A stretch of 47,174 bases of DNA from contig NZ_KB902463.1 in assembly GCF_000379525.1 (NCBI RefSeq), positions 191-47,364 of the forward strand, written 5' to 3'. Below are positions 39,166 through 47,174 of the stretch, one piece after another. The translations under genes were made by a program, and so were the position numbers. The stretch's first letter is position 1; each line of letters opens with the position of its first letter. The notes beneath the pieces are model-generated. The model was not told the origin of the DNA. It did not search any database and saw only the letters and a program-made list of their open reading frames with translations. Source of the stretch: Lamprocystis purpurea DSM 4197. GTDB taxonomy: Bacteria > Pseudomonadota > Gammaproteobacteria > Chromatiales > Chromatiaceae.

Positions 39166-39960
<795 letters not shown>

Positions 39961-40014: not shown

Positions 40015-40088
40015 GATCGACAAGGCTGCCGCTTGACAGACGCAGTGCGCTTGCATAGCCTGAGTCGATTGACTCGTAGCTCAGCTAC

Positions 40089-40212
40089 CGTGGGAGCGGC
40101 GCTCTCGCCGTGATGGCGCGTCCGGCGTCAGCACTCAGGCGCGGTGTGGAAGGGCCGTGGCTGGCAAGCGCGGAGGTGGCTCCCAGCGTCGCGGCCGGGG
40201 GGCCGCTCCCGC
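40089..40212. repeat. REP-like inverted pair downstream of tadA
   Basis: A left unit beginning CGTGGGAGCGGCG (40089-40118 region) and a right inverted unit GTCGCGGCCGGGGGGCCGCT (40188-40207, plus CCCGC) are diverged members of the family at 39311-39406. With the partial MITE end, they account for most of the 383-nt gap 39961-40343, in which I see no gene. Confidence 0.55.
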
Positions 40213-40343
40213 AAGGGGGTGCAGCGCTAGCGGAGGCACGACCCTAATCACCTATTCTGAAACTCCGGCGCCGGCGCCACCGTTCAGGCGACGGCGCGTC
40301 CTCCGGCAATCCCGCGCCACACGCTACCCCGAATGTCGGTGCC

Positions 40344-43136
40344 ATGGTAATGAACGGCGCAACAGCCAAGAAAGAGCATACCCACACAGGAAGATATCGA
40401 TTGAGCGAGGCCGCCCTCGTGACCACGAGCAGCCAGGCTGGCGAGTTCGGGGTTTCGGCCTACGTCAAGAACCGGCGGACCGGGGCGCTCTATCGTATCG
40501 GGGCGGAGGAACTCTTCCTGCTGAACGGGCTGACTGGGGGGCTGCCGCCCGACGCGCTTGCCTCGCTATTCCAGGCGCGAATGCACCTGACGGTCACCGT
40601 GTCGGTGATCGAGCAGTTCGCCGAACAGATGGTCGAGAAAGGGATCCTCGAGCACGCCGGAGCCACTACCAAGGGGCTCGCACCCACGCTGGAGGACACC
40701 TCAGTTGCTGCGGACGCGGCGCAAGGGCTCGGGGGGACGGCGGCCTGCGACATGGAGTCGGATGATTTCGCCATCGACGCAATGGCGGAGGACGACGAGG
40801 ACGCCCTCGATGTCGACGAGGACGCCCTTGATGTCGATGATGAGGACGACCTCGACGCGCTGGTCTTTGACGGCACGGAGACCAAGGTCGAGACAGCGCC
40901 ACCGCCGGACGCGGGCGGCGCGGCTGGGGCCGCGGGAGCAGCGGAAGCAGCGGAGCAAGATGCGCCGGAAACCGGCACCGGCCCTGCCAATCCCGAGGTT
41001 TCACGGCGCGAGCCGCGGTTTCGTGACGGCACCTCGAAACCCCAGACGCCCAAGGACATGGACGTGCTTCTGTTCGACCCCGGCAGACTGTTGCGGGGGC
41101 TGAACATCGCCTTCGGTCCAGTCGCCCGGGTCCTGTCCGCGCTCACCCTGCCCTTGGGTCTCGTCGCCGTATTGGCGATCTTCCACCGACTGCACGACGT
41201 GGTCGAGACGCTCTTCAGCACCCACCGCATGGTCAGCCTTGCGGGCATACTCGCGATTTCGTTGTTTACGGTCAGCCTTGTATCGCGGCTCGTGGTCGGG
41301 GCCGTTCTGCAACGCGAGGGGGCCGCGGTCAGGCGCTTCGGCATCAGTTTCCTGTTTTTCCTGATCCCGCGCTTCGCAGTCGACATGACTGATCTGTACA
41401 AGCTCGACCGGGAGGGCAAGATGCGTGTCTTCGCCGCCGCCTTGCGCACGCGTTTGCTCTTCTTCGCGCTCGGGACCTTGCTCTGGGCGGCGACGAGACA
41501 GTCGGGCTCGCTGGTATCCGATATCGCGGCGATCGTCGGACAACTCGGACTGTTCTCCTTCTTGATCGCGGCCTTCCCGCTGTTTTCCGGCGAGGGCTAC
41601 CGGCTGATGAGCGCCTATTTCGATCAGCCGAGACTGCGGCAACGATCATTGGCCTACCTCTTCGGGACGGGACGGGCCGACACCGGGCCGGCGAGCGCCA
41701 CTGAACGCTGGGCCTTCGCGCTTTACGGGATTGGCTCGCTCCTGACCACGGCCTTCGTCGCCACGCTTCTGGTGGCCTACACATCCACTGCACTGGAGGG
41801 TCGTTTCGGCGGGACCGGGGTGGCGATATTTTTCGGGCTGTTTGCGCTGATCGTCGCCTGGTATATCGTTACCCGCAGGCGCGGCAAGAGGTTGCGCGAG
41901 CACATCGTCACCGAATTGGTGGCCAAGCGGAAGGCGCAGTCGGGAAACAGAACCAACCCCGTGAGCCAGGTCCGACAACTTCTCGTGCCCGCCGGCGAGC
42001 GGGCGCCGCAGCCCCGCACCACGCTCCCCGGCTCGTTCCCGCCAGGAGGGCGGCAGACCTACCGTCCGCTGCCGAGCATCTATGGCGACTATGCCCCCCA
42101 TGTGCGCCGCAACCGTTGGATTCGGCGCGGGATCTTGTTGGCGTTGCTGGCCGGCGCAGTCTATGTCGCCTTCCTCCCCTACCACTACGAAACCGGCGGT
42201 GATGTCGTGATCCTCGCCGACAACCGGGTTCAGGTTGTGGCCCAGGTGCCCAACGAGATCGCCGAAGTCGTGGTCAACGAGGGCGATATCGTCCAGAAGG
42301 GAGACCTTTTGGCCACCCAGATCAACATCCGCGAGACCCACGCGCTCGAGGTCTCCAAGGCCGATCTGGCGAAGGCACGCGCGAATCTGCAACAACTGCG
42401 CGACGGGGCCACGCCGGAGGAAATCCGCGTTGCCGAAGAACAAGCAGAGCGCTATCGGGTCGCCCTTCCCTTCCTCAAGTCCGAATACGAGCGCGCAATG
42501 ACGCTGGGCGCGCGGGGGACGATGTCGCTCTCGCAGAAAGAGCGGACCATCAACGATTACGAAACCGGCAAGGCCGACCTACGCTCTGCCGAGGCGTCTC
42601 TCGAAAGGGTTCGCGCTCAGGCTCGGGACACCGAAATCGCAATCGCCCAGGCCGACGTAGACCGCCTGGAATCCGATGTGGCCTACGACGAAATCAAGTT
42701 GAACGCCACGCGGATGGTCGCGCCCGTCTCCGGCCGGGTCGTATTCGACGGCGATGAGCCGGTGCCAGGCAAATACCTCGACATCGGCGATCTGCTGATG
42801 GAGATCGAGGATCACACCGTCGCACGCGCCGAAATCAAGGTGCCCGAGGCCGATGTCGGCCTGATCCGGGTCGGTGAGCACGTTCGACTCAAGGCCTGGG
42901 CATGGCCCGAAGAGGAGCATATCGGCGTCGTCTCTGCGATCGCGCCGGTGGCCGAGACCAAGGAGTTTGGTCAAGTCGTCCGTATAAGGACCTCGCTACC
43001 GAACGAAAACGGTCTCTTCCGCCCCGGCATGACTGGCTATGCTAAAATAGAAGGCGCTCAGATGCCTAGCTGGCAAGCCTTTTCCCGCGTCTTCGTGCGT
43101 TTCTTCCTGATCGAGGTCTGGGGCTGGATCCCATAA
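40344..43136 (+). CDS. PqqD-like / inactive site-2-protease-like / HlyD fusion protein
   Basis: 930 residues. Residues 17-100 resemble the PqqD-like N-terminus of peptide-associated M50 proteins (YVKNRRTGALYRIGAEELFL, then QFAEQMVEKGILE). About 103-245 is an acidic Asp/Glu then Ala/Gly-rich linker. About 248-540 is a multi-span membrane domain aligned with M50 site-2 proteases (GAAVRRFGISFLFFLIPRFA, VDMTDLYKL, FPLFSGEGYRLMSAYFDQP). The HExxH expected just before AAVRRFG is absent (LVVGAVLQREG), and the usual LDGY is SGEGY, so it is predicted non-proteolytic. A final span near 595 leads to an HlyD adaptor: lipoyl-like half ETGGDVVILADNRVQVVAQV, coiled coil and RMVAPVSGRVVFDG. I infer an inner-membrane export adaptor that may read a peptide leader. 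No ABC ATPase is in the window. Confidence 0.8.
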   Translation: MVMNGATAKKEHTHTGRYRLSEAALVTTSSQAGEFGVSAYVKNRRTGALYRIGAEELFLLNGLTGGLPPDALASLFQARMHLTVTVSVIEQFAEQMVEKGILEHAGATTKGLAPTLEDTSVAADAAQGLGGTAACDMESDDFAIDAMAEDDEDALDVDEDALDVDDEDDLDALVFDGTETKVETAPPPDAGGAAGAAGAAEAAEQDAPETGTGPANPEVSRREPRFRDGTSKPQTPKDMDVLLFDPGRLLRGLNIAFGPVARVLSALTLPLGLVAVLAIFHRLHDVVETLFSTHRMVSLAGILAISLFTVSLVSRLVVGAVLQREGAAVRRFGISFLFFLIPRFAVDMTDLYKLDREGKMRVFAAALRTRLLFFALGTLLWAATRQSGSLVSDIAAIVGQLGLFSFLIAAFPLFSGEGYRLMSAYFDQPRLRQRSLAYLFGTGRADTGPASATERWAFALYGIGSLLTTAFVATLLVAYTSTALEGRFGGTGVAIFFGLFALIVAWYIVTRRRGKRLREHIVTELVAKRKAQSGNRTNPVSQVRQLLVPAGERAPQPRTTLPGSFPPGGRQTYRPLPSIYGDYAPHVRRNRWIRRGILLALLAGAVYVAFLPYHYETGGDVVILADNRVQVVAQVPNEIAEVVVNEGDIVQKGDLLATQINIRETHALEVSKADLAKARANLQQLRDGATPEEIRVAEEQAERYRVALPFLKSEYERAMTLGARGTMSLSQKERTINDYETGKADLRSAEASLERVRAQARDTEIAIAQADVDRLESDVAYDEIKLNATRMVAPVSGRVVFDGDEPVPGKYLDIGDLLMEIEDHTVARAEIKVPEADVGLIRVGEHVRLKAWAWPEEEHIGVVSAIAPVAETKEFGQVVRIRTSLPNENGLFRPGMTGYAKIEGAQMPSWQAFSRVFVRFFLIEVWGWIP

Positions 43137-43144
43137 ACCGCCCG

Positions 43145-43163
43145 TCGGCTTTGGCCGATTTTT
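43145..43163 (+). terminator. Small intrinsic terminator after the HlyD fusion gene
   Basis: TCGGC-TTTG-GCCGA followed by five T, 8 nt after the stop codon. The stem is only 5 bp, so termination is probably partial. It stands directly before the damaged repeat-gene copy. Confidence 0.5.
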
Positions 43164-43181
43164 GAAAAGGGTCAGGATCAA

Positions 43182-43316
43182 ACGAAGAACGACACGCCTG
43201 CATCTTCCGTTCGCGACATCGACCCGATTGATCTGGAGGCGCTCCAAGAGGGCAATGCCGGTGAGGGCCGCGTCGGGTTTGACAACCCCAACGATCAGGG
43301 CGACACTGGCGCTTAG
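43182..43316 (+). pseudogene. Start-less copy of the glycine-rich repeat gene
   Basis: The frame reads (ACG)KNDTPASSVRDIDPIDLEAL followed by QEGNAGEGRVGFDNPNDQGD and then TAG at 43314-43316. It is nearly the same as residues 1-44 of the intact gene at 46603. The ATG is ACG here (43182-43184), the SD-like GGGTCAGGA is altered from GGGTGAGGA, and a stop replaces the codon where the repeats would begin. Homology continues weakly to about 43336 and then ends. It is a truncated duplicate, probably not translated. Confidence 0.75.
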
Positions 43317-43330
43317 GGTCGATCAGGGGT

Positions 43331-43552
43331 TTGGCGAGCGTCAAGGAAGAGCAGTTGAAGGAGGTCAGTGGGGGGACCACGCGGTGCGGGGTCTCAGGGC
43401 GGCAATCCGGCGCTGCGGCGGGCATTCTTCCTCAAGATACTGATGAGGCGGCGGTTTGGCCTTGGTGCCAGCACGCAACAGGTGTGAATGCTCGGGCCGA
43501 TGATGATCGCCAATGGGCCGCAGGTGGCAGCCCTCACCCAGTCCGGATCTAG
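43331..43552 (+). CDS. Possible double-glycine-leader peptide (relic or short precursor)
   Basis: The frame from TTG 43331 reads ASVKEEQLKEVSGGTTRCGVSG, then an Ala/Gly/Trp/His-containing tail ending at TAG 43550-43552. QLKEVSGG fits the double-glycine leader pattern of bacteriocin and peptide precursors (Leu at -7, Val at -4, Gly-Gly at -2/-1). The core would be about 58 residues with two Cys. There is no convincing ribosome binding site, and the leader begins exactly where the repeat-gene copy stops matching, so it may be a fused fragment. Another frame over the same DNA (NPALRRAFFLKILMRRRFGL) also looks protein-like, which adds doubt. Present as candidate only. Confidence 0.3.
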   Translation: MASVKEEQLKEVSGGTTRCGVSGRQSGAAAGILPQDTDEAAVWPWCQHATGVNARADDDRQWAAGGSPHPVRI

Positions 43553-43667
43553 AGGTCGCTCGATGTTGAACCCGTTCTTCGATGACAGCGAGATGAGCGA
43601 CAGCCCGGCCGCGGTGTTTCGGCTTGCGATTCTCGCACCTGCATCAGGCCTGGCCGGACCGGCTTAA
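43488..43667 (+). CDS. Short ORF, 59 residues, upstream of the sulfotransferase
   Basis: MLGPMMIANGPQVAALTQSG continuing to MLNPFFDDSEMSDSPAAVFR and ending GLAGPA at TAA 43665-43667. AGGTG lies 5 nt upstream of the ATG, and the sulfotransferase starts 12 nt after the stop. It could be a small coupled gene or the end of a decayed one, since the same frame is open upstream of a TGA at 43485-43487. I do not recognise a family. It overlaps the double-glycine candidate in another frame, so at most one of them is real over 43488-43552. Confidence 0.3.
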   Translation: MLGPMMIANGPQVAALTQSGSRGRSMLNPFFDDSEMSDSPAAVFRLAILAPASGLAGPA

Positions 43668-43679
43668 GGGACGACGACC

Positions 43680-46169
43680 ATGCGCGAACCGTTGTTCATT
43701 CTGGGTCCCGGACGGTCATTCACCTCGGTCATCGGCTCCATGATCGGCCAGCACCCCGATCTTTTCGGACTACCCGAAACCAACCTCGCCACGGCCGAGA
43801 CGGTGGGGCAATGGTACGGCGGCACCCTTCCGGGGATAAAGCCGCGTCGCTCGGGGGCGTTGCGGTTGTTGGCGCACCTGCATCATGGCGTTCAGAGCGC
43901 TGAGGCGGTGGACGAGGTCGCTGCCTGGCTGCTCAGTCGCCCAGGGATGACCACGGCAGAACTTTACGAGCATGTCGAGCGTCTCGTCACGCCTCGGCGG
44001 CTGGTGGACAAGAGCCCGCGGCACGTCATAACCGATGTCTGTCTGGCACGGCTTCCCCGGATCGCGCCCACGGCGAAATACCTGCGCATCGTGCGCCATC
44101 CCTATTCCAACGGCAAGTCGATCGTCGCCACCGGCTGGTACTTGGACGGACTGCGGGCCTGGAGCGGCAGATCCTGGGACCGGCGCACCGATCCGCCGAC
44201 GTTGGACCCACAGTTCCATTGGATTGACCTTCATGAGCGGATCGACCGCTTCTTCGCCTCTCTGCCATCCGACGCCTGCCGCACCGTTCGGGGTGAGGAC
44301 CTGTTGGCTAATCCCAGGCCGGTTCTAAGACAGATTGCCCGGTGGTTGGAAATCGACGAGTCCGACCTCGCTATCGAGGCGATGCTGCATCCCGAGCGAT
44401 CCCCTTTTGCAAGCAAGGGGCCGCCCAATGCGGAGTACGGCAACGATCCGAGCTTCCTCGAAAGCCCGGCTCTGCGCGCCTTCACCCCGCCAAAGGTGCC
44501 GCTGTCGGGCCGGCTGCCCTGGAGGGGGGATGGCGAGGGTTTCACCGCGCAGGTGATCGCCCGCGCCCGCGAGTTCGGCTATACCGACGAGCCGCTGCCA
44601 ATGCCGCGTTTGCCCGAGGGCTTCGACGGCAGCCGGGGCCGGCTGATGGCGATTGAGCCCGACGGCCAGGGCTTCCCGATGGCTCATGGTAATCTGCTGG
44701 ACAATTCCTGCATCGCGCTATCTCCGCTACGCGCCGTCTCTTCCGTAAAGACCCTGCCCGGTCCCGCATATGGGGGCGGCAATTTCGGGGCCTTCACCGC
44801 CTCCGACTATGCGGTCGGGGTCTTCGACAGCCCGCGCGAGCCGGCACTCGTGGGCATCGATTTGAAAACCGGTGCGCTGCGGTGGCAATCCGAGTTGGGT
44901 CTGCTGCCGAAGTTGCGCGATGACCTGAAGGGACGGTTTGTCGGTGGGCTCCTGCTTGTACGGCTTTATTTCGAGAATGGCGCCCCCTTGCGGTGCATCT
45001 TTGCCGGCAACCGCGCGGAGATCGTCTGCCTCGACCTTGACGGCACCCCTGTCTGGCGGCGGGACACACGCGACATCGTACGCTCTCACGGCAGCACGGC
45101 ACGCGCGCACGGCACCCCGCGCTGCCTGCGTTATACCGCCGACAATGCGCTTATCTACGGCTCGCGCAACGGGTACGTAGGCAAACTCGACCTACTGACG
45201 GGCCGGACCATCGATATCGCGGACCTCTCGACGACTGTCGATCACGCCGGGGACCGCGTCTGCGGACATTTCGATGTCCGACAGTCCATTATCGTTGCCG
45301 GAGACTTCGCCTATTTCCAGGCAAAGTTTACCGCCGAGCGAGAGGTCACCGCGCCCGAGTCGCTGCCGACCGCGTTGTTCAGACTGCGCGTGGCGCACAA
45401 TCCCGATGGCCGCATCGAGCGGATGCCCGACCAGGTCTCGGAGGCGACGGTGCCGACCTATGTCACCATCGGCTCGGTGGGCGACCGCAGGGTGGGTGGC
45501 TCCCCTTCGGCACGACGGCGCGAGGACGGGCAGCTGGTGATCTTCACCAATGAATTTGCCGAGGATGCGGTCCCGCCGGGCGGCCTGGGCACGGTCTTCC
45601 AGTACTGCGGTATCCGCGACCAGGGCACGCGGTTGCTTCTGCAGTGGCGCTGTCGCGTGCATCATCCGGTGGATGCCAAGGTGACCACAGCCCCCGCCGT
45701 CGACGAGCCCACCGACACGTTGATCGCCACCCACCGCTTCGCGATGCTCCTCTTTGCTCGGGCATCATGGCGAGAGGGTGAGATCGAGCCCGACCTGGTT
45801 GTGGATGCGCTCGACTGTCTGGCCCCAGAGGTTCGCGCGCGGGCGACGGCGGCGGAATTCTCCAGTCCCATCAGCATCGCACGCGATGCCGGGGCAGCGG
45901 ATTTCGTCGCGTTCGTGGGCCTTGCGGTCTGGACTCCCTGGACCGACCGCAGCTATGCGTTTCTCAGCGCGTTGGAAGTTCGCACGGAGCCGGCGCCTTC
46001 CGTCACGCCGCTCTGGAGTCGCTCGATCGTTGTCGATAAGTCGGGTAACGCCCTGCCGGCGGCGCGCTCCTTTGCCCAGCCCGCGCTATTTGCACTTCAG
46101 GAGCCGGGGGGGATGCGCCCGGGCCTCATCATGGGCACGATGATGGATGGGCCGACGATCTTTTGCTAG
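43680..46169 (+). CDS. Sulfotransferase fused to a predicted beta-propeller domain
   Basis: 829 residues; AAGGGA lies upstream of the ATG. Residues 1-300 are a PAPS-dependent sulfotransferase: the 5'-phosphosulfate loop LFILGPGRSFTSVIGSMIGQ at 5-24, LVDKSPRHV near 105 and the 3'-phosphate site KYLRIVRHPYSNGKSIV near 133-149. The domain keeps the Arg and Ser of the RxPxxxxxS pattern. Residues about 340-829 are beta-rich with PQQ/WD-like blades (VGIDLKTGALRWQSELG, IVCLDLDGTPVWRRDTRD, YGSRNGYVGKLDLLTGRT), suggesting a propeller. There is no signal peptide or membrane span. It would move a sulfuryl group from PAPS to an unknown acceptor: a sugar, a lipid or the neighbouring repeat peptide (inference). 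The fusion is unusual in my experience. Confidence 0.75.
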   Translation: MREPLFILGPGRSFTSVIGSMIGQHPDLFGLPETNLATAETVGQWYGGTLPGIKPRRSGALRLLAHLHHGVQSAEAVDEVAAWLLSRPGMTTAELYEHVERLVTPRRLVDKSPRHVITDVCLARLPRIAPTAKYLRIVRHPYSNGKSIVATGWYLDGLRAWSGRSWDRRTDPPTLDPQFHWIDLHERIDRFFASLPSDACRTVRGEDLLANPRPVLRQIARWLEIDESDLAIEAMLHPERSPFASKGPPNAEYGNDPSFLESPALRAFTPPKVPLSGRLPWRGDGEGFTAQVIARAREFGYTDEPLPMPRLPEGFDGSRGRLMAIEPDGQGFPMAHGNLLDNSCIALSPLRAVSSVKTLPGPAYGGGNFGAFTASDYAVGVFDSPREPALVGIDLKTGALRWQSELGLLPKLRDDLKGRFVGGLLLVRLYFENGAPLRCIFAGNRAEIVCLDLDGTPVWRRDTRDIVRSHGSTARAHGTPRCLRYTADNALIYGSRNGYVGKLDLLTGRTIDIADLSTTVDHAGDRVCGHFDVRQSIIVAGDFAYFQAKFTAEREVTAPESLPTALFRLRVAHNPDGRIERMPDQVSEATVPTYVTIGSVGDRRVGGSPSARRREDGQLVIFTNEFAEDAVPPGGLGTVFQYCGIRDQGTRLLLQWRCRVHHPVDAKVTTAPAVDEPTDTLIATHRFAMLLFARASWREGEIEPDLVVDALDCLAPEVRARATAAEFSSPISIARDAGAADFVAFVGLAVWTPWTDRSYAFLSALEVRTEPAPSVTPLWSRSIVVDKSGNALPAARSFAQPALFALQEPGGMRPGLIMGTMMDGPTIFC

Positions 46170-46370
46170 CACCGCAACAGCGGCCTGCCCGGCCGATGAC
46201 CCTGGCGCCTGCCTTGATCTCCCGATTGACCATGAAGCATGACCGCGTAGCCTCAGTCACAGCGCGGACTGGCGGGGTTAGCGAAAGTTAACGTTCGCAC
46301 GAGGGAGTAGACACCGCGGCGCCGCAGTCACGTGGTTCGATCAGGCTGCCGCCGCGGTCCGACGACACAG

Positions 46371-46492
46371 CGAGATCGCAATAGCCCAGGCCGACGTAGA
46401 CCACCTGGAATCCGAGGTGGCCTACGACGAATTCAAGTTGAACGCCACTCGGATGGTCGCACCCGTCTCCGGCCGGGTCGTATTCGACGGCG
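46371..46492 (+). repeat. 122-bp duplicate of the HlyD coding region
   Basis: Matches 42632-42753 in the HlyD fusion gene with seven mismatches, keeping the same codon phase (IAIAQADVDHLESEVAYDEF and RMVAPVSGRVVFDG). The remainder of the HlyD 3' end is missing after it. The phase runs open through to the ATG of the repeat gene at 46603. The flanks 46170-46370 and 46493-46602 show no other gene. Confidence 0.9.
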
Positions 46493-46602
46493 CTGTCTGC
46501 TTAGGGACACAAAGCCGGGGCACGCTACAAAATCCCAGATACGCAGAGCGCTGCCGCTTTGTTATCCTTCTGGGCAGACTTTTGAAAAAGGGTGAGGATC
46601 AA

Positions 46603-47174
46603 ATGAAGAACGATACGCCTGAATCTTCCGTTAGCGAAAACGAGCCGATTGATCGAGAGGCGCTCCAAGAGGGCAATGCCGGTGAGGGCCGCGTCGGGTT
46701 TGACAACCCCAGCGATCAGGGCGACACTGGAGCGCAGGGCCGATTCAGGGCCGATCAGAGGTTTGGCGGCGGCCAAGGCTCTGGCGGTGGTGGGATTAGT
46801 GATGGGCAGTATCGATTCGGCGCTGGCCAGGGAGCCTTCGGCGGCGCTGGCCGGTTCGGTGGCCAGGGCTTCGGCGCCGGGACCGCCGGCGGAGGCCTTG
46901 GTGCCGGACAGGGCCGATTCGGCGCTGGCCAGGGGGCCTTCGGCGGTGCCGGCCGGCTCGGTGGTCAGGGCTTCGGCGCCGGGGCTGCCGGCGGCAGTGG
47001 ACCCGGTGCCGGACAGGGCCGATTCGCCGCTGGTCAGGGGGCCTTCGGCGGTGCCGGACGGTTCGGTGGTCAGGGCGCCGGCGGCGGTGGCCTTGGTGCG
47101 GGACAGGGTCGATTCGGCGCAGGCCAGGGGGCCTTCGGCGGTGCCGGCCGGTTCGGTGGTCAGGGCTTCGGCGC
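46603..47174 (+). CDS. Glycine-rich tandem-repeat protein (runs off the window)
   Basis: At least 190 residues. GGGTGAGGA lies just before ATG 46603. The head is acidic, without repeats: MKNDTPESSVSENEPIDREA then LQEGNAGEGRVGFDN. From about residue 44 the sequence is almost only Gly, Gln, Phe, Arg and Ala, with units such as GQGRFGAGQGAFGGAGRFGG followed by QGFGAG and a variable Gly/Ala link. No Cys, Lys or Trp occurs in the repeats. There is no Sec signal peptide; the acidic head could be a leader for the HlyD-type exporter whose gene fragment directly precedes it (inference). The acidic head is conserved in the damaged copy at 43182, while the repeats were lost there. I do not recognise a family. 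Confidence 0.75.
   Translation, partial: MKNDTPESSVSENEPIDREALQEGNAGEGRVGFDNPSDQGDTGAQGRFRADQRFGGGQGSGGGGISDGQYRFGAGQGAFGGAGRFGGQGFGAGTAGGGLGAGQGRFGAGQGAFGGAGRLGGQGFGAGAAGGSGPGAGQGRFAAGQGAFGGAGRFGGQGAGGGGLGAGQGRFGAGQGAFGGAGRFGGQGFG
46813..47174 (+). repeat. In-frame tandem repeat array, about 90-105 nt units
   Basis: The sequence CGATTCG(G/C)CGCTGG-like unit start recurs at 46813, 46915, 47020 and 47110, giving periods of 102, 105 and 90 nt (34, 35 and 30 codons). Synonymous changes between units show selection on protein sequence, while length changes are all multiples of three. The array continues past the window end. Confidence 0.9.

Follow-up and report, generated by a model that had tools for sequence, protein, structure and literature searches.

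What does a gene for a fused membrane adaptor do beside a sulfotransferase gene and a glycine-rich repeat gene on the same strand? The three genes lie at one end of a 47,174-nucleotide stretch of Lamprocystis purpurea DSM 4197 (hereafter the window), which is part of one contig (C100; NZ_KB902463.1) of a 6.9-Mb genome. An initial annotation regarded them as a self-contained locus that exports and modifies the repeat protein. Our analyses suggest instead that they are one end of an ~39-kb cluster for a polyunsaturated fatty acid (PUFA)-synthase-like (‘secondary lipid’) polyketide that is probably sulfated. We give about an even chance to the further proposal that the fusion is the export adaptor of this sulfated polyketide lipid, acting with a cytosolic, FG-type low-complexity partner that is encoded either within the adaptor (in cis) or by a separate gene (in trans). 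The relevant features are as follows, RRE standing for recognition element of ribosomally synthesized and post-translationally modified peptides (RiPPs).

40344–43136, + strand: 930-aa fusion of an RRE/PqqD-like domain, an acidic disordered linker, an S2P-like membrane domain without HExxH and a HlyD/membrane-fusion (MFP) adaptor (Pfam/NCBIfam, AlphaFold2 model, structure comparison, HExxH count)
40389–40655, + strand: RRE/PqqD-like winged-helix domain of the fusion, residues 16–104
40662–41051, + strand: acidic linker of the fusion, predicted to be disordered, residues 107–236 (model confidence, pLDDT, <50; N-terminal regions compared)
41064–41942, + strand: S2P/M50-like membrane domain of the fusion, no HExxH, residues 241–533
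42096–43133, + strand: HlyD/membrane-fusion adaptor part of the fusion, residues 585–930
about 43153–43470, + strand: decayed copy of the Gly-rich gene directly 3' of the fusion, the usual place of this gene in relatives (pairwise identity)
43680–46169, + strand: 829-aa sulfotransferase and beta-propeller protein (Pfam, fold matches, full-length orthologues)
46367–46495, + strand: duplicated HlyD coding fragment, source 42628–42756 (93% identical over 129 bp)
46603–47174, + strand: 5' portion of the intact, Gly-rich FG-repeat gene, whose frame extends beyond the window, across a 556-N gap, as far as contig position 48688

The fusion has the three parts that the initial annotation read from its sequence, a PqqD-like domain, a pseudo-S2P domain and HlyD. 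Pfam profiles match the HlyD domains (HlyD_3, E 5.7e-15; HlyD_D23, 5.6e-14), and the M50-like stretch at residues 235–510 matches NCBIfam daptide_HExxH (4.3e-19), under the curated cut-off of that model. In the predicted structure, ~90 residues near the N-terminus form the beta3-alpha3 winged helix of RRE/PqqD domains: residues 16–104 can be superposed on 6jx3_B and 5v1v_A, two structures that include a leader peptide. An S2P membrane fold and an EmrA/MacA-like adaptor part, with barrel-sandwich and alpha-hairpin, make up the rest of the predicted architecture. A first Foldseek run with the fusion gave only HlyD-type adaptors among the best 50 matches listed; the RRE and S2P fold matches come from a separate second structure comparison, with parts of the fusion outside residues 591–914 barely tested. 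Hydropathy and the positive-inside rule predict 6+1 helices for the window protein, which has a basic loop between its S2P and HlyD parts.

All 36 aligned members of the fusion family have the HlyD part. The HExxH zinc motif is absent from the window fusion and from 29 of the 36, and is intact in all seven Zixiibacteriota members. These seven (L129, L149, L134, L133, L118, L128 and L136) share the RRE-S2P-HlyD architecture, and a TPR protein adjoins the fusion in six of them (not in L134). Judged from the motif, the Zixiibacteriota form is likely the active ancestral type of the fusion. Within the window’s order, a match to the fusion at E ≤1e-10 occurs in 76 of 147 genomes, mostly via HlyD, and in 13 of them it also covers the membrane part. 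Plasmid records gave 71 matches, none spanning over 80% of the fusion, with the match running through the HlyD part in the best 20 of the 71 listed.

The same contig carries, downstream, epimerase/short-chain dehydrogenase (SDR) proteins, a polyhydroxybutyrate (PHB)-type esterase, and TPR and TIG proteins, and then an X500-epimerase, a hydrolase, a phosphodiesterase, an acyl carrier protein (ACP), two polyketide synthase (PKS) proteins and a second sulfotransferase (ST). The first PKS protein has the order NMO-KS-AT-ACP-KR and the second KS-AT-DH-PPTase (KS, ketosynthase; AT, acyltransferase; KR, ketoreductase; DH, dehydratase; PPTase, phosphopantetheinyl transferase); we take the NMO domain to be a PfaD-like enoyl reductase. 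X500 denotes the 540-residue N-terminal part of the epimerase, which belongs to no known family; the X500 protein of a relative has no Pfam match at E 0.05, and the window genome’s X500-epimerase protein has no plasmid match. A Pfam scan of 14 own-contig proteins revealed no RiPP-modifying enzyme. The X500-epimerase (L008:277–2883) and a 3bHSD-like protein (L007:14758–15732) are 81% identical to those of Ruegeria profundi though the genome is of Chromatiaceae kind, which makes horizontal transfer of the cluster probable.

Scanning a genome collection with an alignment of the fusion gave 70 named loci. The tally that follows drops 22 of them, 15 without a full fusion open reading frame (ORF; four of these, L100, L119, L121 and L137, hold a PKS) and seven with <8 kb of flank. 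Among the 48 loci kept, all with a complete fusion and 8 kb or more of flank, we found a PKS in 28, X500 in 28, an ACP in 26, an ST in 23, a phosphodiesterase in 17 and a nonribosomal peptide synthetase (NRPS) in four; 41 have a PKS, an NRPS or X500. The cluster-family profiles were seeded from these same loci, and the 48 include many close relatives (Pseudomonas, Neptuniibacter, Fischerella) that are not independent. The other seven are four Zixiibacteriota loci, one with an ST and none of the others (L114), one Roseivivax contig and L091; Roseivivax has its PKS and ST-propeller genes on another contig than the fusion. Loci matched via part of the HlyD region only (L141–L148) contain a PKS, NRPS, X500 or ST in none of eight cases. 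Fusion-type PKS clusters span Alpha-, Beta- and Gammaproteobacteria, Thermodesulfobacteriota, Nitrospirota and Cyanobacteriota.

Some of these clusters are built differently. In six distinct loci, mostly from Chromatiaceae (L040, L043, L092, L095, L096, L127), the fusion stands beside large NRPS genes, three times with a BD-FAE-type esterase, and the stretch seen contains no sulfotransferase. Others (L123:4607–15000, L125:5601–16304, L115:819–11700) have four sulfotransferases, one of them after an ACP-like domain, together with U357, a family related to X500; a further family, U312, occurs in L123 and L125.

The ORF at 43680–46169 contains a Sulfotransfer_3 domain (Pfam, 3.4e-19) and a propeller part, in agreement with the initial annotation; the PQQ-propeller profile match is weak and under cut-off, and the propeller fold matches are BamB-like. 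The fold of the sulfotransferase domain matches those of CurM (4gbm; E 1.8e-12, TM 0.81 by target length) and of the olefin synthase (4gox; E 1.1e-11), which are also its closest solved sequence matches. Tyrosylprotein sulfotransferases match its fold more weakly. CurM and olefin-synthase sulfotransferases act on an ACP-bound beta-hydroxy chain. The fold is thus nearest to those acting inside polyketide synthases, which makes a polyketide the likelier target than the repeat protein, the substrate first proposed; by this analogy, sulfation of the polyketide would be the likelier chemistry. A relative’s cluster has an ST after an ACP-like stretch (L045:6749–8056; PP-binding E 0.01, under cut-off). 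Full-length orthologues of the ST-propeller protein, 68, 64 and 46% identical, occur in three of the alphaproteobacterial genomes with fusion relatives. In the window’s order, six of 147 genomes have the ST at E ≤1e-15, and all six are among the 13 in which the match to the fusion reaches its membrane part.

The third gene encodes a protein whose 445 known residues are 39% G, 15% A, 10% Q, 9% F and 7% R. A 556-N run (contig 47365–47920) begins at the end of the window (47174), inside the repeats, and hides their true number. Comparison of seven copies of an 18-codon repeat core gave pair-summed differences of 86 synonymous and 36 non-synonymous (pN/pS 0.16). The decayed copy behind the fusion is 89% identical to the intact gene over 178 bp of the head and 70% over 112 bp of the tail, and has an altered start codon and an in-frame stop. 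Together with the HlyD piece repeated ahead of the intact gene, it fits a single duplication, in keeping with the link between exporter and repeat gene that had been drawn from these duplicates: in the simplest history, the end of the fusion and the repeat gene would have been duplicated once, the new copy being placed 3' of the ST gene, and the original repeat gene next to the fusion then decayed.

Is the Gly-rich gene more than a chance neighbor? The pN/pS of its repeats and its homologues in other genera argue that it is. Within the window’s order, a search with the head gave 10 of 210 genomes at E ≤0.1, all at E ≥0.02 except the own genome, and a search with the tail gave eight of 210 at E ≤0.01, the own genome alone being convincing. 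A GQGRFG DNA pattern matched 25 of the 210, with five sites in the own genome and no more than two in any other, and a reversed control matched some too; the sampled order thus gave no sign of another such Gly-rich repeat gene. Among the closest fusion relatives, Ruegeria profundi has a homologue (L080:13519–14544) with a 47% identical head and a shared C-terminus, GFEDQII[DE]G. The homology rests on these two features, since E-values from the locus set (145 loci; low-complexity filter and composition correction off) mean little for the Gly-rich tail. A second copy in Roseivivax (L201:13642–14643) is likewise a homologue, and the proteins of G000, Ruegeria and this copy have both the head and the C-terminus conserved.

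We sampled 394 genomes of the family of Ruegeria (which we take to be Rhodobacteraceae in GTDB), 12 of which have the fusion at E ≤1e-50. A strongly Gly-rich segment is present in 10 of these 12. In seven (G210, G211, G329, G524, G252, G476, G433) it is a downstream gene on the same strand, ≤0.9 kb from the fusion as counted from the methionine taken as start, and in six of the seven a small convergent sulfotransferase lies between the two. Three others (G596, G582, G422) have it solely within the fusion. Of the last two genomes, G565 has a weaker Gly-rich ORF on the other side of the fusion and G530 has none. A Rhodovulum locus (L082) and one from a metagenome-assembled genome (L083) are two further trans cases. 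Adjacency of fusion and Gly-rich gene, as predicted at the outset, thus recurs in Alphaproteobacteria, with no further case in the sampled order of Chromatiaceae.

The Gly-rich gene was also considered as an orphan; a six-frame check of the fusion loci ruled this out, antisense frames having masked Gly-rich ones. Covering 1.6 Mb in 60-residue windows with at least 40% Gly, the six-frame scan returned these Gly-rich genes and fusions, and otherwise seven opposite-strand or shadow frames (L042, L089, L093, L094/L195, which are one seen twice, L100, L192, L193).

The in-cis segments lie either just before the first membrane helix, in several relatives at the end of the acidic linker, or in the basic loop that joins the S2P part to the HlyD part – positions that, from the predicted topology, are probably cytosolic. 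None of 12 trans proteins examined has a signal-peptide-like start, and in 11 of the 12 FG-type tripeptides exceed all 200 shuffles. An RRE profile matches the cis forms L085, L094, L113, L117, L192 and L193 and, weakly, a separate frame of L088, whose fusion is split over several frames and is described only. In a 66-row tree of the fusion, the window protein groups with Ruegeria and Roseivivax (SH-aLRT 100). An 18-row group (99) holds a mostly-trans clade (seven trans, two both), a mostly-cis clade (six cis, one both, one none) and one row lacking a segment; Mangrovimicrobium is a separate Gly-rich case. Presence or absence of the segment requires three changes on this tree, compared with a shuffle mean of 15.2 and 0 of 500 shuffles as low. 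The tree omits nine duplicate or cut rows and fusions scoring <500 (including L199 of G565), and its cis and trans labels were assigned by hand.

By eye, many Gly-rich proteins and segments contain a single short stretch that is helix-like and either basic or hydrophobic (window protein, RRRAVFLRMLMRRR; Ruegeria, RRRAFFLWLMSRRR; Frigidibacter, ERLLAALAARQQQ). Five trans proteins (L082, L083, L190, L191, L192) terminate in GGWxNW(R/K). Two loci have other low-complexity proteins between their PKS and AP2 genes (L086:4422–5198, L093:5220–5657), with repeated basic helices (GGDKRAAILQRLIAKK; GERRKKIMQMIAKKK); these possibly have the same role with another composition.

How might these parts work together? 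In the arrangement that we favor, the fusion would be the envelope adaptor of the polyketide pathway. Facing the cytosol, its N-terminal RRE-like domain would bind a partner peptide or protein, the protease-dead S2P domain would anchor the adaptor in the inner membrane, and the HlyD part would cross the periplasm, probably together with a pump and a channel whose genes lie elsewhere. In this scheme the Gly-rich FG-repeat protein would not be cargo but a flexible, self-associating cytosolic hub keeping pathway proteins close to the exporter; sister lineages would have built the same kind of segment into the adaptor itself. That the segment can be built into probably cytosolic parts of the exporter makes it likelier to be a working part than cargo.

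Several observations weigh against this arrangement. Cis and trans forms occur together in three of the 12 genomes (G252, G476 and G433, the contig of the last of which may be a chimera) and in Mangrovimicrobium (L117), and so are not simple substitutes. No Gly-rich segment was found, at the threshold applied, in 49 of the 66 tree rows, and the segment is therefore not needed for the adaptor as such. An excess of FG-type tripeptides is clear in one distinct cis case (L194), weak in L113, L085, L086 and L192, and not seen in the cis segments of L094, L117, L193, L197 and L088; the link between cis and trans forms may thus be Gly-richness alone. No match to the RRE profile was obtained for L086, L194 (cut by a contig end), L197 (whose N-terminus looks penicillin-binding-protein-like by eye, maybe from a contig chimera) or L198. 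Hydropathy gives 7+1 peaks in L080, L113 and L102, and seven peaks after one at 87–105 in L192; the extra peak in L080 and L113 coincides with a stretch modelled as two strands (331–347 in the window protein). A motif scan of the flanks (~10 kb at most) found an ABC ATPase-like ORF in six of 67 fusion loci, 1.5–11 kb away, with only two Frigidibacter loci sharing a position; no partner pump was found, RND and MFS pumps not having been looked for. Finally, the RRE fold suggests a peptide ligand, which suits export of the Gly-rich protein itself.

A more specific form of the favored arrangement, which we put forward tentatively and think rather unlikely, is a membrane-tethered FG-repeat condensate, formed by the separate protein or by the segment inside the adaptor, that would concentrate the sulfating polyketide assembly line at the inner face of the exporter. 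Such a condensate could be likened to the selective meshes of FG nucleoporins or RGG proteins.

The initial annotation saw the Gly-rich protein as cargo: the RRE-like domain would read its acidic head, and the protein, sulfated or not, would be exported via HlyD as a surface or matrix protein. The match of the RRE-like fold to leader-bound lasso RREs favors such a role, as do the position of the gene downstream of the fusion in all seven trans-type genomes of the sampled family and the conservation of head and C-terminus among the three proteins named above. The heads of the other trans proteins are, however, unlike, and the RRE-like domain is also present in members of the fusion family that show no Gly-rich gene. 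The exporter itself can contain Gly-rich segments, at probably cytosolic positions; the ABC ATPase that was to support the proposal is conserved in the two Frigidibacter loci alone, so that, within the flanks scanned, the dedicated gene of a type I secretion system is missing. The trans proteins also lack signal-peptide-like starts, though a type I route would need none. Export of the Gly-rich protein accordingly survives as a possibility that we consider doubtful.

Alternatively, the Gly-rich gene could be a low-complexity passenger or general linker that owes its adjacency to the common descent of one mobile cluster. Low-complexity sequence arises easily, and with the cis and trans clades in one group the association may have a single origin, plus L117. 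Against this, residues are conserved between the repeats, the gene is retained in several genera, and in the window’s genome it was relocated within the cluster with one copy kept intact; we therefore judge a mere passenger to be improbable. The idea that lipid or sulfate is attached to the Gly-rich protein and that the conjugate is the product seems very improbable: sulfotransferases and PKSs share clusters, and the ST domain resembles folds for ACP-bound chains and, more weakly, tyrosylprotein sulfotransferases, but the known part of the window’s protein has 0.2% Tyr, 2.9% Ser and 1.3% Thr, and many of the tree rows without a Gly-rich segment are in PKS/ST clusters.

Each part of the locus is of a known kind, and we found no published description of its composition, as the initial annotation had supposed. 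Our literature search returned no account of an RRE/PqqD-S2P-HlyD protein, its Gly-rich partner or its cluster, and never found PqqD, HlyD and M50 together; in the main text of a 2025 RRE survey, the terms efflux, secretion, M50 and polyketide do not appear. DevB is the adaptor of heterocyst glycolipid export. Unlike DevB and the MacA, EmrA and HlyD adaptors, the adaptor here is fused to RRE-like and S2P-like domains and has no conserved ABC pump gene beside it. It shares a fold with RiPP recognition elements (PqqD, lasso B1) but occurs within PKS/NRPS clusters, and the ST domain, in contrast to those of CurM and the olefin synthase, is joined to a BamB-like propeller and not to PKS domains. 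Like FG-nucleoporins and RGG/FG proteins, the Gly-rich protein combines glycine with Phe and Arg and is enriched in FG-type tripeptides; unlike them, its 190 residues inside the window match no Pfam family at E ≤0.1 (nor RTX in that part).

The closest described clusters are the ‘secondary lipid’ fatty acid synthase/polyketide synthases, defined by at least one KS, ACP and KR domain (Shulse and Allen 2011, PMC3098273). The own cluster has these three in a pfa-like setting and, like the published clusters, also AT, DH-like, PPTase and NMO domains. Type O clusters are described there from Dinoroseobacter shibae, Parvularcula bermudensis and Gloeobacter violaceus, with product unknown (PMC3098273); relatives of the fusion cluster likewise occur in Rhodobacteraceae, Parvularculaceae and cyanobacteria. 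From this overlap, we would guess that the own cluster is perhaps Type O. The words sulfotransferase and secretion do not appear in the main text of that paper, in contrast to the gene content here, and the part consulted does not mention the fusion, ST, X500 or Gly-rich genes (PMC3098273).

Two small repeats complete the description of the window. Positions 46230–46321, upstream of the intact repeat gene, are 87% identical to sequences on three other contigs (C210, C193, C167) and constitute a small dispersed repeat. Between tadA and the fusion gene, 39300–39410 and 40080–40220 hold repeats of the GTGGGAGCGGCGTCCCGCCGCGATG kind that look REP-like (repetitive extragenic palindromic) by eye.

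These results define a candidate export module for PKS clusters of a family that is widespread and apparently uncharacterised. The contrast between active-looking Zixiibacteriota relatives and the 29 other aligned members without HExxH points to a loss of protease function and offers a lead on the origin of the adaptor. With a low-complexity segment found both within a transporter component and as an adjoining gene, the role of such sequences at bacterial membranes could be tested in marine roseobacters that are in culture.

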